A stretch of DNA of 64,000 nucleotides from Nitrospiraceae bacterium (lineage in GTDB: Bacteria > Nitrospirota > Nitrospiria > Nitrospirales > UBA2166): the NCBI GenBank assembly GCA_002726235.1, contig PBSN01000002.1, positions 32,994 to 96,993 of the forward strand, in the 5' to 3' direction. Shown here piece after piece: positions 17,782 through 44,035 of the stretch (position 1 is its first letter; each line of letters begins with the position of its first letter). Below the pieces are notes generated by a model, which saw only the letters and a list, made by a program, of their open reading frames with translations, was not told the DNA's origin and searched no databases. A program made the translations under genes and the position numbers.

Positions 17782-19647
17782 ATGACAACCAAGGACCCTT
17801 GGCAATTAGACTTGGGAGCTCGCCCCCTCGGCGCTTCCGAGGTTTTCTTCCGCGTTTGGGCTCCGTTTGCCCAAACAGTGTCCGTTCGGGCTTCCGAACG
17901 GCAGGGTGATGACTTTCCCCTTGAGAAACAGGATTTCGGATATTTTCAGGGCACGATTGCTCTGTCGGGTCCAGGTACACGGTATCAGTACATATTGGAT
18001 GGGGAAAAAGCTCGCCCGGATCCTGCCTCCCGCTCACAGCCCAACGGTGTTCACAACCCATCAGAAGTCGTGGCAATTACTGGATTCCCTTGGACAGATC
18101 AGAACTGGAAGGGCCTGCCACTCGAAAGACTTATCCTGTACGAACTCCACACAGGTACGTTTACACAGGAAGGAACGTTTGAAGCGATCATTCCGTTCCT
18201 CGATTACCTCGCAAATGAAGTGGGTGTCACAGCAATTGAATTGATGCCCATCGCGCAATTTCCAGGAACACGTAACTGGGGATACGACGGGGTCTATCCA
18301 TTTGCTCCCCACAACAGCTTTGGAGGGGGACAAGGGCTCAAGCAGCTCGTGGATGCGTGCCATGCACGCAATCTCGCAGTCATCCTCGATGTTGTCTACA
18401 ATCATCTCGGACCTGAGGGAAACTATCTCGGCGACTTCGGACCCTACTTCACGGACCGCTACCACACACCCTGGGGACAGGCCATCAATTATGACGGAGC
18501 AGATAGCGATCCGGTCCGTCATTATTTTATCAGCAACGCTCGCTACTGGATCACTGAGTACCATATCGATGCTCTCAGACTCGATGCGATTCACGGCATC
18601 TTCGATTGCAGGGCGATCCACATCCTCGAAGAATTGACATCGGCCGTCCATCAGCTTGGAGAACAACTCGGTCGAAGTGTGCTCGTGATCGCAGAAAGCG
18701 ATAGCAATGACGCGAAAGTCATACGGCACACACGCGACGCTGGATATGGTATCGACGCTCAGTGGAGCGATGATTTTCACCATGCACTGCATGCCCTGCT
18801 TACTCATGAAACGGTTGGTTATTACGAAGACTTTGGCCATCTCGATGACCTTTCAACAGCATTCACCGATGGATTTGTCTATCAGGGTCAGGCTTCTGCG
18901 TTTCGCAAGCGGCGCCACGGAAGTCCAACCAAGGGCTGCGACTCATCACAATTCATCATTTGTTGCCAAAACCATGACCAGATCGGAAACCGGCCTAGAG
19001 GTAATCGGTTGAGCACCCTTGTTTCAAATGCGGCATTGAAGGTTGCAGCAGCTTCTGTACTCCTCTCCCCAAATACTCCTCTCATTTTTATGGGGGAGGA
19101 ATATGGAGAAACGGCGCCATTTTTTTATTTCGTCGATCACGCTGACCCACATCTCCAAGCTACAATCCGCGATGGGCGTCAGGCTGAATACAAAAACTTT
19201 GGATGGTTGGAGACTGGGCCCGATCCAAATACTATTGACGTATTTGAACGTTCGAGAGTTCATCCCGGAGTTCAGACTAATTCCAAACAACAGGCCATAC
19301 TACGATGGTATCGCCGGCTGATCAGTCTTAGAAATCAAGTCCCTGCCCTAGGAACTTCAAAAGGAGGAATGCTTAGCCTATGGACCTTTCCTGAGCGAGT
19401 GCTTATCATGCATCGCTGGGCCTCCGATGGACCTCAGGCAATTGTGGTTTTGGGATTCAACCCTGCCCCAACGGAAATCAACATATGTGCTCCAAAAGGA
19501 ACATGGACACGGGCACTTGATGCCTCATCGGAAAAAAACGGAGTGACGGGTCAAGCGAACATGCCAAAAGAACTTACCATTGATGCCAAGGGTCAATCCA
19601 TCCCTATCCCAAGCTTCACCGCGACGGTATATCTAACATCGTGTTGA
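17782..19647 (+). CDS. treZ: Malto-oligosyltrehalose trehalohydrolase
   Basis: 621 residues, GH13 family. It releases trehalose from maltooligosyl-trehalose made by TreY. The N-terminal CBM48-like domain (LGARPLGASEVFFRVWAPFAQTV) is followed by the catalytic barrel: VVYNHLGPEGNY, DALRLDAIHGI (nucleophile Asp about 266), VIAESD (acid Glu about 306) and CQNHDQIGNRPRG (about 398). The ATG follows an in-frame TTG directly. No treY, treX or treS lies in the window, so it stands alone here. Its stop is inside a TGTTGAAAAA sequence resembling the end of the dispersed repeat seen at 23780 and 43475. Confidence 0.92.
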   Translation: MTTKDPWQLDLGARPLGASEVFFRVWAPFAQTVSVRASERQGDDFPLEKQDFGYFQGTIALSGPGTRYQYILDGEKARPDPASRSQPNGVHNPSEVVAITGFPWTDQNWKGLPLERLILYELHTGTFTQEGTFEAIIPFLDYLANEVGVTAIELMPIAQFPGTRNWGYDGVYPFAPHNSFGGGQGLKQLVDACHARNLAVILDVVYNHLGPEGNYLGDFGPYFTDRYHTPWGQAINYDGADSDPVRHYFISNARYWITEYHIDALRLDAIHGIFDCRAIHILEELTSAVHQLGEQLGRSVLVIAESDSNDAKVIRHTRDAGYGIDAQWSDDFHHALHALLTHETVGYYEDFGHLDDLSTAFTDGFVYQGQASAFRKRRHGSPTKGCDSSQFIICCQNHDQIGNRPRGNRLSTLVSNAALKVAAASVLLSPNTPLIFMGEEYGETAPFFYFVDHADPHLQATIRDGRQAEYKNFGWLETGPDPNTIDVFERSRVHPGVQTNSKQQAILRWYRRLISLRNQVPALGTSKGGMLSLWTFPERVLIMHRWASDGPQAIVVLGFNPAPTEINICAPKGTWTRALDASSEKNGVTGQANMPKELTIDAKGQSIPIPSFTATVYLTSC

Positions 19648-19744
19648 AAAATAATTCCCGAGCCATCAAGGGCCTGGCAATGCGAAAGTCCATGCTGACA
19701 CCACACTCGTCCGCAGAATGACCTCCAATTCGCGTTAATAAGTC

Positions 19745-21979: not shown

Positions 21980-22127
21980 GAATCCCTTTGCAAAACACTA
22001 TCCTGAACACCTCAACAGTTCACAATGTTCATATGCGTCGTACGCATTCCGCTTGTTTGTCAATAACTGTCTTGCCAGAATGCGCAATTATGTATTTTTC
22101 AAGTGGCTCCGAAGGCGTATAGATATA

Positions 22128-23783
22128 ATGAAAGCATGGTTCAGAAAAGTCATTGCCTCAGGTGACCTGTTTATTTGGGGTAGTGGCGCAGGGCTTGCCA
22201 TTGCTCTGCTCATGGTCATCGGGCTTGTAGCGCTAATCGGCATAAATGGATTGGGATTCTTTTGGACTTCAGACGTATTGGAGCTTACGCTTGATGATGG
22301 AACGCGCGTCATCGGCGAACTCACAGGATCCGAACAAATCCCCAACTCTGTTACCCCAGAACACCCACAGGGTCAGACGAGAATTCAGATTAAAGTGGGC
22401 AACCGCGATCTTTACGGACAAGACTTTCGATGGATTGATGAAGCTCGAATTATCACACGGACAACGCCTCCCGATGTCGTGCTACTGGAACGACAAGAGT
22501 GGGGGAATATGTACGCGCGCATTCAAGCAATCCACGCGCAGGGCTCCCCCATCGCCGCAGGAGGAGATGCCGGATGGAATGCCCTCCTACCGCTCATCGA
22601 CAATGCCACCATGCTACGCACTCAAATTCGCCATATTGAGAAGAGTGAAATTGGAAGTCTCAGTGACGCAATCGAGCGAGCTCGATTGAAGATACGAAAG
22701 CTTGAACTGGCGCTGCCGCAAGAGCAGAAACTTCAGAACGCCAACCCAGAACGCTACACGCAACTGCACGCCACCATCAACAATGCAGAGGCGCAATATC
22801 ATAAGCATATCGCTTCACTGGAAAAATTATATGTCGATTTGGACACCCATACCGCCATTCTCATCGACAGCAACGGTCTCGAGACATCCCTGCCCATTGG
22901 CAAAATCATTCGCGCGCTGCGTCCGAATTCAATGAGTTTCCATGAGAAAACTTGGATCTATATCGTCAACGTATGGGAGGTCTTGACCGGCGAACCACGG
23001 GAAGCCAATACCGAAGGAGGGCTTTTCCCCGCAATTATGGGGACGGTGATGATGGTCCTAGTCACGAGTATCATCGTGGTCCCATTTGGAGTGATTACCG
23101 CGTTGTACCTTGGCGAATACGCCCGGCAAGGCGTCATCGTGAAAATCGTCAGAATCGCAATCAATAACCTTGCCGGCATCCCATCAATCGTACTCGGGAT
23201 CTTTGGACTTGGATTTTTTATCTATGTCGTTGGCGGAACAATTGACACATTCTTCTTTGCTGAAACCCTTCCCAATCCAACCTTTGGGACTGGAGGTCTG
23301 TTGTGGGCATCCTTTACACTCGCACTCCTAACCGTGCCAGTGGCTATTGTTTCAACCGAAGAAGGCTTATCTGCGGTTCCACGTGATTACCGGGAGGCCT
23401 CGGTAGGGCTCGGAGCCACAAAATTTGAAACCATCTGGCACGTTGTGCTCCCAGTCGCGATGCCGGGGATTTTGACAGGATTCATCCTTGCCATTGCCAG
23501 GGCAACCGGCGAAGTCGCACCACTGATGCTGACCGGAGTCGTCAAATTAGCTCCGGAGCTTCCCTTGGATACGACTTTTCCATTTGTGCACCTTGATCGG
23601 AAATTTATGCACCTTGGTTTTCACATCTATGATGTTGGGTTTCAATCTCCAAACGTTGAAGCCGCCATGCCAATGATTTACGTCACAACCTTAGTCCTCC
23701 TTATCATAGTCGTCACGCTGAACCTTCTCGCCATTGCACTCCGCCAGCGTCTTCGAAAGAAGTATGCCGGTTCTACGGTCTAG
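22128..23783 (+). CDS. pstA: Phosphate ABC transporter permease PstA with coiled-coil extension
   Basis: About 551 residues from ATG 22128 (MKAWFRKVI), preferred to in-frame starts at 22053/22080 because of AAGGCG upstream and the fit to the PstA N-terminus. TM1 (GAGLAIALLMVIGLVALIGI) is followed by about 230 extra residues including a charged helical stretch (IEKSEIGSLSDAIERARLKI) likely to be a coiled coil. The core has IMGTVMMVLVTSIIVVPFGVITALYLGEYA, ASVGLGATKFETIWHVVLPVAMPGI and ARATGEVAPLMLTG. The TAG stop is formed by the CTAG end of the repeat at 23780. Confidence 0.88.
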   Translation: MKAWFRKVIASGDLFIWGSGAGLAIALLMVIGLVALIGINGLGFFWTSDVLELTLDDGTRVIGELTGSEQIPNSVTPEHPQGQTRIQIKVGNRDLYGQDFRWIDEARIITRTTPPDVVLLERQEWGNMYARIQAIHAQGSPIAAGGDAGWNALLPLIDNATMLRTQIRHIEKSEIGSLSDAIERARLKIRKLELALPQEQKLQNANPERYTQLHATINNAEAQYHKHIASLEKLYVDLDTHTAILIDSNGLETSLPIGKIIRALRPNSMSFHEKTWIYIVNVWEVLTGEPREANTEGGLFPAIMGTVMMVLVTSIIVVPFGVITALYLGEYARQGVIVKIVRIAINNLAGIPSIVLGIFGLGFFIYVVGGTIDTFFFAETLPNPTFGTGGLLWASFTLALLTVPVAIVSTEEGLSAVPRDYREASVGLGATKFETIWHVVLPVAMPGILTGFILAIARATGEVAPLMLTGVVKLAPELPLDTTFPFVHLDRKFMHLGFHIYDVGFQSPNVEAAMPMIYVTTLVLLIIVVTLNLLAIALRQRLRKKYAGSTV

Positions 23784-23965
23784 CAAGGTGTTGGAAAAAC
23801 TCAAAAATCATCAGAAACCGATTATTCTATACGCCAGACTTAAAACACCAGTGGAGAGATAGGATGTTCAAAAAAGTCCATTCAGCAATTCCGCAAGCCA
23901 CCAGCACATGAGCACGATAACGGACCAAGGACGTCACTGGAAGCCTTTTTCAACATACCTACTAG
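23780..23965. repeat. MITE-like dispersed repeat, copy A
   Basis: A 186-bp non-coding segment bounded by CTAG at each end (23780-23783 and 23962-23965). The left end CTAGCAAGGTGTTGGAAAAA is an imperfect inverted copy of the right end CCTTTTTCAACATACCTACTAG. An inner motif AGGATGTTCAAAAAAGTCC (23861-23879) repeats the theme. It shares end sequence and several internal blocks (AACACCA, then about 18 of 24 identical positions before the right end) with the segment at 43475-43666. It begins exactly at the pstA stop. Confidence 0.6.
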
Positions 23966-40815: not shown

Positions 40816-43485
40816 ATGTCAGACCAGTCATCCATCACCATCAAGGGCGCGCGTGCACATAATCTTAAAAATATAAACGTTGCGCTCCCTCGTGATCAGC
40901 TGGTAGTGATCACGGGGCCAAGCGGTTCAGGAAAGTCTTCTCTCGCCTTCGACACCGTCTATGCTGAAGGACAGCGGCGCTACGTCGAATCGCTCTCAGC
41001 CTACGCAAGACAATTCCTTGAGCGAATGGACAAACCAGAGGTCGATAGCATTGAAGGGTTGTCTCCTGCAATTTCCATCGAACAGAAAACAGCATCGCGC
41101 AACCCACGATCTACCGTTGGCACGGTCACAGAAATTTACGATTACCTTCGTCTTCTCTTCGCCCATATTGGGCAACCATTCTGTTTCCGATGTAGTCAGA
41201 AAATTACCGCGCAAACCATACAACAAATGGTTGATTCGGTCATGGCCTTGCCACAAAACTCACAATGTCTAGTTCTTGCCCCAATTGTGAGAAGACGGAA
41301 GGGAGAATATCGGAAAGAACTTATCGAAATGCGCCGACAAGGATTTGTTCGCGCCAGAATCGACGGTGTCCTGCACGATCTCGGCAATGACATTGTACTT
41401 GATAAAAAGAAGATGCACACCATCGAAGTGGTGGTTGATCGGCTCGTTCTAAAATCAGATCACGGCGATCGCCTCCGCCATCGCCTAAGCGATTCTATGG
41501 AGATCGCAAAAAACCTCACCGGCGACCTAGTCGGAATCTGTCTCGACAATACCACTGATTTGCTCTTTAGTGAAACACTCGCATGCGTCAAGTGCCAAGT
41601 AAGCTACCCTGAACTAAGCTCACGTTTATTCTCATTTAACAGCCCCTATGGAGCCTGTTCTGCCTGTGATGGCCTCGGGCTTACTCCGACGAGTGCGATC
41701 ACGGCTGAGTTACCCGATGACCTTGGTGCAGCTTATGGCCGTCGATATGACGAGTTCCTTCAATGTCAAACATGCAGTGGAAGTCGATTAAAGCTCGAAA
41801 GTCTCTCGGTACGCATTGGGGGCTACAACATTGCTGAGATATGTCACCTCTCCGTACGTGATGCGGAAAGTTTCTTCGCACAACTCGATCTCAAAGAACG
41901 AGAAGCTGTCATTGCCAGAAGTATATTGAAGGAGATTCGTGACCGCCTGGGATTCCTCATAAACGTTGGCCTTGACTATCTCACGCTTGATCGAGCAGCT
42001 GCCACACTTTCCGGTGGAGAAAGTCAGCGAATTCGCCTGGCAACCCAAATCGGATCACGCTTGGTTGGAGTACTATACATCCTAGACGAACCAAGTATAG
42101 GGCTTCATCATCGAGACAATCGCCGACTTCTTGCAACGCTCAGGGAACTCCAGGAATTGGGCAATACCGTCGTCGTCGTGGAACATGACGCAGATACAAT
42201 CCGAACTGCTGACTACGTGCTGGACATGGGGCCAGGGGCTGGGGTGCACGGTGGCACTATCGTTGCCAGCGGAACACCACACGAGATAATGGATAATGCC
42301 TCGTCGCTTACAGGACGTTACCTGTGTGGAGACAATGCTATCTCTCTTCCCGTCCGGAAGAGACAAGCGACTCGGTTTTTAACTGTAGAAGGTGCCTTCA
42401 CCCATAACCTTAAAGATGTCACCACACACATCCCACTCGGGTTGTTCACATGTGTCACTGGAGTATCTGGATCAGGAAAGAGTTCGCTGATTTTCGATGT
42501 TCTCTATCGCTCTCTCATTCAAACGTTGTACAGAAGAGACGGAAAGCGAAAAGTCGTAAAATCATCAAGGAAACTCCAGCGTCTTGCTGGTTGTCGTGCT
42601 CTCAGCGGCATAGAACACATCGATAAGGTGATCAATATTACTCAAGATCCGATCGGGCGAACGCCACGATCCAACCCGGCGACATATACTGGACTATTTA
42701 CCTACATCCGAGAATTTTTCGCACAGCTTCCAGATTCGCGAATGCGCGGCTACCGTGCAGGACGGTATAGCTTTAACGTCAAAGGCGGCCGTTGTGAAGC
42801 ATGCCGGGGCGGCGGCCTGATCACAATTGAGATGCACTTTCTCCCAGATATTTTTGTGAAATGTGAAGTCTGCGACGGTCACCGCTACAACCGAGAGACG
42901 CTAGATGTTCGGCATCAAGGACGCAATATCGCCGACGTGCTTAATCTGACGGTCGAGGAGGCCATCGAGTCCTTTCAGCATCTCCCGCTTATCCGTCGAA
43001 AGCTCGAGACGTTACGCGATGTCGGACTTGGATATATAAGGCTTGGACAATCAGCAACCACATTATCTGGGGGGGAGGCTCAACGCGTCAAGCTGTCAAG
43101 GGAACTATCAAAACGGCCGACCGGGCGCACCATCTATATTCTCGACGAACCGACGACGGGCCTACATTTTGTTGATATTCAGAAGTTGCTTGACGTACTT
43201 GATAGGCTTGTTTCTGCCGGAAACAGTGTGGTCGTGATTGAACACAACCTCGACATTATCAGACATGCTGACCACATTATCGACCTAGGACCGGAGGGGG
43301 GAGATCGAGGAGGAGAAGTCATCGCCACGGGACGACTGGAAGAGATACTGGAGATTAAACACTCTCACACCGGTCACGCGCTGTTGCAATCCGGCATCAG
43401 TATACACCCGCACCACTCCACCACGGAGCCGGCGCGAAAGCAACGTTCTACGTCATGCCTCCAAGACAGCTTAACAAGCTATTGA
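40816..43485 (+). CDS. uvrA: Excinuclease ABC subunit UvrA, shortened
   Basis: 889 residues against about 940 usual. Two ABC modules: Walker [10 protein letters not shown] near 36, signature [14 protein letters not shown], first zinc module CVKC...CSAC (about 257-285), second GVSGSGKSS, zinc module CEAC...CEVC and [15 protein letters not shown]. Between the first zinc module ([10 protein letters not shown]) and CQTCSGSRL only about 35 residues occur, where family members carry roughly 50 more. The deletion is clean and the frame is open, so it is probably a natural short form. It recognises bulky DNA lesions. Weak ribosome binding site; the ATG is fixed by the domain start. Confidence 0.93.
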
Positions 43486-43666
43486 AATACTCGATACGTA
43501 TCAAAATTACACCTGCATGACAAGCCACTTGGCTAATAGAACACCATCGGCATCATGTTAAAACAACAAGACCGCAGGCCTGTTGATACCAGAATCGTAC
43601 ATGGGCGTACGTGAGAGTAGCAACGGGCCGAGAACTCCACTGATACCTTTTTCAACATTCTGCTAG
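43475..43666. repeat. MITE-like dispersed repeat, copy B
   Basis: About 190 bp filling the gap between the convergent uvrA and ComEA-like genes. The right end GATACCTTTTTCAACATTCT plus CTAG (43663-43666) matches copy A's right end. The left end AGCTATTGAAATACTC (from about 43475) is a decayed inverted copy. Internal blocks shared with copy A include AACACCA, CATGTTAAAAC/GATGTTCAAAA and AACGG(G/A)CC. The uvrA TGA lies in the left end, and the ComEA-like TAG lies in the right CTAG. The left boundary is less certain than the right. Confidence 0.55.
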
Positions 43667-43962
43667 CTTTCCTCATCTACGGTGACATGCTCCCTAAACT
43701 TTTCTAACGTCTCTTTTCCGATACCTTTAACATTCAGTAGATCATCCACAGCGTTAAATAACCGCTCGTTTTCTCTATATTCTACAATTCGCTCAGCGTG
43801 TACCTTTCCGATCCCCGTAATCGGCTTCAACTCCTCCACTGTAGCAGTGTTGATATTGACATTGTGGTCTGCATAAACAGCAGCTATGCTCATGACCATC
43901 ACAATGCTCATGATCCCAATAAACGGGATGCTGTCCACAAACAATATCCTTCGCTTCCTCAT
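43663..43962 (-). CDS. ComEA-like helix-hairpin-helix protein
   Basis: 99 residues from ATG 43962, chosen because AGGA lies 5 nt upstream. An N-terminal transmembrane or signal segment (FIGIMSIVMVMSIAAVYA) is followed by two HhH motifs: NINTATVEELKPITGIGKVHAERIVEYR and NAVDDLLNVKGIGKETLEKF. Such exported HhH proteins bind DNA non-specifically and take part in DNA uptake in competent species; no other competence genes are in view. The stop codon lies in the end of repeat copy B. Confidence 0.87.
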   Translation of the reverse strand: MRKRRILFVDSIPFIGIMSIVMVMSIAAVYADHNVNINTATVEELKPITGIGKVHAERIVEYRENERLFNAVDDLLNVKGIGKETLEKFREHVTVDEES

Positions 43963-44035
43963 AAGTCCTATCCTCTCTAATGAGTTAGATGAGCGAAATA
44001 CCAGCACTTCATCTAAGTCAACAGACCAGACCTCC

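Follow-up and report, generated by a model that had tools for sequence, protein, structure and literature searches.

Elements A and B, two short non-coding segments lying at gene ends in the 64,000-nucleotide stretch of DNA analysed here (the window), are very probably old, inactive copies of a Nitrospirales MITE, a non-autonomous element belonging to the IS5 family. The transposase that moved them would have been of the IS5 type, judging from the ends of the elements, their target and their relatives. This kind of mobile element is ordinary and its identification is solid, but an IS5 origin leaves the source of one half of the element, a hairpin, unaccounted for, and this counts against the explanation. 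The features discussed below, in window coordinates, are as follows.

22053–23783, plus strand: pstA (TIGR00974 above cut-off); its TAG stop (23781–23783) lies inside the CTAG target of A
23780–23965, minus strand: element A, a full copy, counted with the duplicated CTAG on each side; its L end falls on the pstA stop (23780) and its R end points toward pstB (23965)
23860–23965, minus strand: R half of A, a remnant of a conserved hairpin of about 128 nt (covariance match, model positions 1–127)
40816–43485, plus strand: uvrA (NF001503 and TIGR00630 above cut-off); its TAA stop lies in the TTAA end of B
43482–43666, minus strand: element B, lying where uvrA and the comEA-like gene converge
43551–43666, minus strand: R half of B, a decayed hairpin remnant (covariance match)
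43663–44007, minus strand: ComEA-like helix-hairpin-helix gene, 114 aa (TIGR00426 above cut-off); its TAG stop lies in the CTAG of B

The repeat family and its copies in the window

Element A (186 bp) has the sequence CTAG-CAAGGTGTTGGAAAAACTC...GCCTTTTTCAACATACCTA-CTAG, and B reads TTAA-CAAGCTATTGAAATACTC...CCTTTTTCAACATTCTG-CTAG; the positions and sequences given for both in a preliminary description of this DNA were correct on re-reading. NCBIfam profiles support the gene calls for PstA, PstB, UvrA, the ComEA-like protein and TreZ. In the pstA frame (22053–23783), the PstA model spans residues 306–568 of 576, leaving about 300 N-terminal residues uncovered and the start codon uncertain. The pstA terminus reads GTC-TAG, in which TAG is part of the CTAG of element A, while B holds the uvrA stop within its L end (TTAA) and the comEA-like stop within its R end (CTAG). 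The earlier claim that CTAG ends supply the TAG stops of pstA and the ComEA-like gene can therefore be seen directly in the sequence; the uvrA stop, described as a TGA in the end of B, is in fact a TAA (43483–43485) in the TTAA end. A third, half copy had been suspected at the treZ stop (19632–19660). This candidate was rejected, as it has no partner end, gave no match to the covariance model, and can be aligned gap-free with sequence of the congener G003 that contains no element.

Direct alignment of A with B gave 30 identical columns out of 38 (79%) at one end only, with an E value of about 0.01 against the window, and the pair taken alone would be weak evidence for a shared family. A covariance model of the R half, trained solely on genomes other than that of the window, matched A with 51.7 bits (E = 2e-10) and B with 42.8 bits (E = 3e-8). 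The same model found 42 matches at 41 places in the window's own genome (1.87 Mb) at E ≤ 0.01, and when mismatches were allowed, paired ends 100–260 bp apart were present at many places in that genome. The end pattern CTAGCAGRRTGYTGAAAAA, with at most one mismatch, occurred in 30 of 39 Nitrospirales genomes, and the reversed pattern gave zero matches in the same 39 genomes. The family is far beyond chance. The matching inverted ends and shared inner blocks of the preliminary description thus mark a real element, since a model built elsewhere recovers A, B and about 40 copies, and the possibility that no further copies exist, or that the blocks are no better than chance, is contradicted by those copies and by the spread of the ends among the genomes searched.

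The copies are short (100–260 bp) and non-coding, and both sides bear inexact terminal inverted repeats like CAGGMTGYKGAAAAA, although in the window's genome some ends have degenerate forms (TTAA, CTGA). Similar ends were also found on short elements in Acidobacteria, Alphaproteobacteria, Deltaproteobacteria and others. In the literature searched, no paper was found that joins Nitrospira with such elements, a search on IS5 and YTAR returned nothing relevant, and the family is apparently undescribed for the Nitrospira group.

Insertion sites and IS5-family partners

Two congeners, G001 and G003, were used for the comparison of insertion sites and target duplication that the preliminary description had proposed. 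G003 carries all seven of the seven insertions compared, with B represented by a shorter homologous element at the same place, whereas G001 has a clean empty site for three of them, the others being unreadable or not located. The pstA 3' end of G001 shows a single GTCTAG; in the window the element sits there between two CTAGs, and G003 holds a diverged form of that insertion. At C4:16427-16630, G001 is empty with one TTAG and the window's genome reads CTAG...TTAG; at C8:476209-476412, G001 is empty with one CTAA and the window's genome reads CTAA...CTAG; both sites are filled in G003. The presence of one YTAR in the empty state and two in the filled state at these three sites indicates that the target is YTAR, (C/T)TA(A/G), duplicated over 4 bp; the observed targets were CTAG, TTAG and CTAA. 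YTAR is the usual target of the IS5 family. A vertically conserved terminator or RNA gene that was never mobile would account for the sites held in common with G003, but it is excluded by the clean empty sites in G001 and fits poorly with near-identical copies at different loci of Ca. Nitrospira defluvii, so that we give this reading next to no credence.

When public genomes were scanned for the L end, matches appeared in many phyla. In genomes of Schlesneria, Ignavibacteria and Chloroflexi (L247, L268, L272), such ends enclose elements of 1.36–1.39 kb with one transposase gene each, and the three transposases match NF033581 (IS5 family) above cut-off as well as the Pfam families DUF772 and DDE_Tnp_1. 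Similar elements are present in Nitrospira genomes, where, at five of the loci that encode such a transposase (L308, L309, L310, L311 and L315), CTAG-type ends lie 1.29–1.39 kb apart around the gene. The intact IS of Ca. N. defluvii (L308) has TTAG on either side; that of G037 (L309) has CTAG on either side, and its protein scores 271 bits against NF033581, above cut-off. The short elements thus share their ends with autonomous elements that encode a transposase of the IS5 family, and they share the YTAR target with its 4-bp duplication. Of the two ends of the short element, the L end is similar to the IS ends, whereas the R end diverges from them after about 15 bp, and no match of hairpin length to the model was found inside L308–L311 or L315. 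Two other stretches, one of 1.46 kb between two ends in G031 (L169) and one in L282, were rejected as full elements because they contain host genes and not a transposase.

Based on these comparisons, the small element targeting CTAG that had been proposed from the sequence can be described more closely. A small mobile unit, bounded by inexact terminal inverted repeats, inserted at YTAR and duplicated the four target bases, and an IS5-family transposase would have mobilised it in trans. It resembles IS5-derived MITEs (NF033581) in its terminal inverted repeats, 4-bp target duplication, lack of coding capacity and ends common with the full IS, and differs from them by a conserved hairpin of about 128 nt that is absent from the IS and by the presence of about 40 copies in a genus that now lacks the transposase. 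Indeed, no such IS5-type transposase gene was found in the window's genus, which, together with the insertions inherited in common with G003, identifies A and B as inactive relics. The low mobility attributed to the element therefore holds for the window's genus, but not for Ca. N. defluvii, where near-identical copies at different loci indicate recent movement.

An alternative assignment of the family to REP/REPIN elements, mobilised by RAYT (Y1) transposases, is highly improbable. The two are alike as palindromic, extragenic units adjoining a conserved tetranucleotide, but the present family has terminal inverted repeats, an observed 4-bp target duplication and DDE (IS5) partners; furthermore, a Y1 transposase was not found in the window's genus, and RAYT loci elsewhere in Nitrospirales are not bordered by these ends.

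A subfamily with the ends CTAGCAGGCTGTTGATAAA and CTAGCAGKTTRTTGNNAAA occurs in G031 (L170, 1151–1358; L174, 2071–2278). Ends of a similar kind, GTTGACAAA, border the IS5-type transposases at L311 and L315, as would be expected if each MITE subfamily were paired with a transposase of its own.

Position at gene ends

The shared position at gene ends, to which the preliminary description had drawn attention, is real. In a first count, we scored an end in G031 when its TAG or TAA closed a frame of at least 80 codons: 48 of 66 R-type or unclassified ends and 3 of 13 L ends did so, compared with 20 of 152 other CTAG readings, and in the window's own genome 11 of 27 R ends lay at stops compared with 47 of 814 YTAR readings, but these first counts exaggerate the effect, since the other CTAGs are mostly located within genes, where insertions would be lost. 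The upstream frames matched Pfam families in 8 of the 10 tested. A later null was drawn from an ORF map and consisted of non-coding CTAGs outside elements in relatives. Stops made up 14 of these 49 CTAGs (29%), and 20 of 55 full-length elements had an end at a stop (36%; p = 0.41). Special targeting of 3' ends was rejected, since the excess for full-length elements vanishes against this null.

The two ends were also compared with each other. Among full-length copies, the R end was at a stop 16 times and the L end 4 times (p = 0.012), and a moderate excess was left for R ends in G031, of which 36 of 71 were at stops compared with 14 of 49 non-coding CTAGs (p = 0.023). With a looser gene definition, the orientation counts were 22 for R and 12 for L (p = 0.12). 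All p values given here are uncorrected, although several thresholds were tried. A strong orientation preference was rejected because the outcome varies with gene calling; a preference for the hairpin to adjoin the stop codon is suggested, but not proven.

We conclude that the gene-end position results mainly from a target that contains TAG or TAA and from purifying selection against insertions inside genes. Because YTAR contains these triplets, an insertion at a stop codon would be one of the few that do no harm where genes are densely packed, and the 4-bp duplication would restore the stop codon, placing the element at a gene end without special targeting. Three clean empty sites, a known target and IS partners show the gene-end repeats of this lineage to be transposon relics, with no special targeting required to explain where they lie. 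The nearest described parallel is QMITE2 of Coxiella burnetii, a MITE of 150–190 bp found mainly in 3' untranslated regions, with a stable RNA fold, direct repeats of 7–11 nt of variable sequence, and a GTAG REP (PMC5896051). The present family differs in its fixed YTAR target, which itself supplies the stop codon.

The hairpin half and its possible function

Full-length copies are asymmetric. They comprise the R end, CTAG-CAGGATGCTGAAAAAGTCCGCCAGC..., a unit of about 128 nt that forms a single long hairpin and ends in ...GGACGGCCTTTTTGAGCATCCTG, a spacer of about 55 nt, and the IS-like L end. In five hairpins of relatives the fold z ranged from −4.5 to −7.5, and 9 of the 21 consensus pairs showed pair-keeping changes on both sides, mostly in the outer arms. 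Identity over 45 full-length copies was 83% for the inner hairpin and 40% for the spacer, and in Nitrospira copies TTTTT directly follows the GC-rich stem. In N. defluvii, one hairpin type is common to two spacer types, and the same spacer sequence is found in two copies that lie at different loci, which is evidence of recent movement there. No Rfam 15 family matched any of five loci above its gathering score, and a known structured RNA was rejected on this basis; the hairpins thus form a multicopy Nitrospirales family for which Rfam contains no entry. Solo hairpins were considered as a separate mobile form and rejected, since at two sites the far flanks hold L-end-like remnants, so that they look like full copies with decayed L halves.

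The copies in the window are in a different state. The fold remains in A, with a z of only −1.8, and in B the z is −0.4, neither being clearly better than shuffles. No site was detected at A by a scan for short-loop terminators, which gave two weak ones at B. When the window's genome was compared with G003 at three sites, identities in the hairpin and in the rest of the element were 74 and 58%, 53 and 61%, and 62 and 57%; by this comparison the hairpin does not appear to be consistently better kept than the rest of the element in this lineage. We conclude that the hairpin has largely decayed in the window's copies. The preliminary description had suggested an element kept as a 3'-end RNA structure or terminator, and the conserved, covarying hairpin of relatives followed by TTTTT, with its possible bias toward stops, agrees with that suggestion, but A and B themselves do not.

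Two accounts of the hairpin half can be weighed. The first, which we consider possible though somewhat less than an even chance, is that the half is needed for transposition, for example as folded DNA or as a protein-binding site, and has no role for host genes. The combination of one hairpin type with different spacers within N. defluvii, the joint variation of the hairpin arms with the type of end, and the decay of the hairpin in a genus that lost the transposase are all in agreement with such a role. However, the IS5-family elements of Nitrospira (L308–L311, L315) have no hairpin, and short elements that share the ends but lack the hairpin are found in other phyla.

The second account, which is slightly more doubtful, adds to the MITE origin an exaptation of the R hairpin as a 3'-end module, a bidirectional terminator or a stabiliser of mRNA 3' ends, that was spread by transposition and selected beside stops. 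The strong folds in Nitrospira relatives, the compensated pairs, the better conservation of the inner hairpin than of the spacer, the T5 immediately 3' of the GC-rich stem, and the R-end counts (16 to 4 in full-length copies; 36/71 against 14/49 in G031) argue for it. Against it, the orientation bias weakens under the looser gene definition; the terminal arms show the strongest covariation, for which gene conversion or a match to the transposase is another possible cause; and the window's copies lack most of the fold, in a lineage where the hairpin is not consistently better kept than the remainder. Under this account, the R half, which is often read right after the stop, would be kept in Nitrospira proper for a role as RNA, for example to end transcription in both directions or to protect 3' ends, and this function would be largely gone in the window's lineage; we are less sure of both these steps than of the insertion mechanism. 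A terminator function of MITEs has been called conceivable in a review that cites the SPRITE elements of Streptococcus pneumoniae, repeated elements that resemble rho-independent terminators (PMC10969869). The present family is also repeated, but it has a long hairpin inside an IS5-type MITE, and its terminator function is putative. The furthest extension is that in Nitrospira an IS5-driven mini-transposon provides hairpins for 3' ends throughout the genome, placing the conserved, covarying structure of about 128 nt on stop codons, where one orientation would be favoured and the structure kept as a terminator or mRNA-end protector for dozens of genes per genome, and this we regard as unlikely, if conceivable. 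A terminator role of the transposon-borne hairpin is now directly testable.

Outside the genus Nitrospira, only two of the loci scanned gave a clear hairpin score, L262 from a Nitrospirae MAG (147.6 bits) and L263 from a Methylomirabilota MAG (70.4 bits); the other matches to the hairpin model there, at about 27–47 bits, were mostly two-strand matches to the terminal arms. Loci of other phyla (L183, L190, L211, L227, L229, L230, L236, L264, L179 and L292) showed paired CTAG-type ends 100–210 bp apart without the hairpin, their hosts being Acidobacteria, Alphaproteobacteria including Chelatococcus asaccharovorans, and others. In rare copies of G031 (L341, C3:353870; L354, C7:361387), it is the other hairpin arm (GCTCAAAAA) that adjoins CTAG, so that the hairpin is reversed. 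Finally, the two outer stem segments of the relatives' hairpin place one G against another (A1 columns 14 and 130), a mismatch that is almost invariant despite its covarying neighbours.
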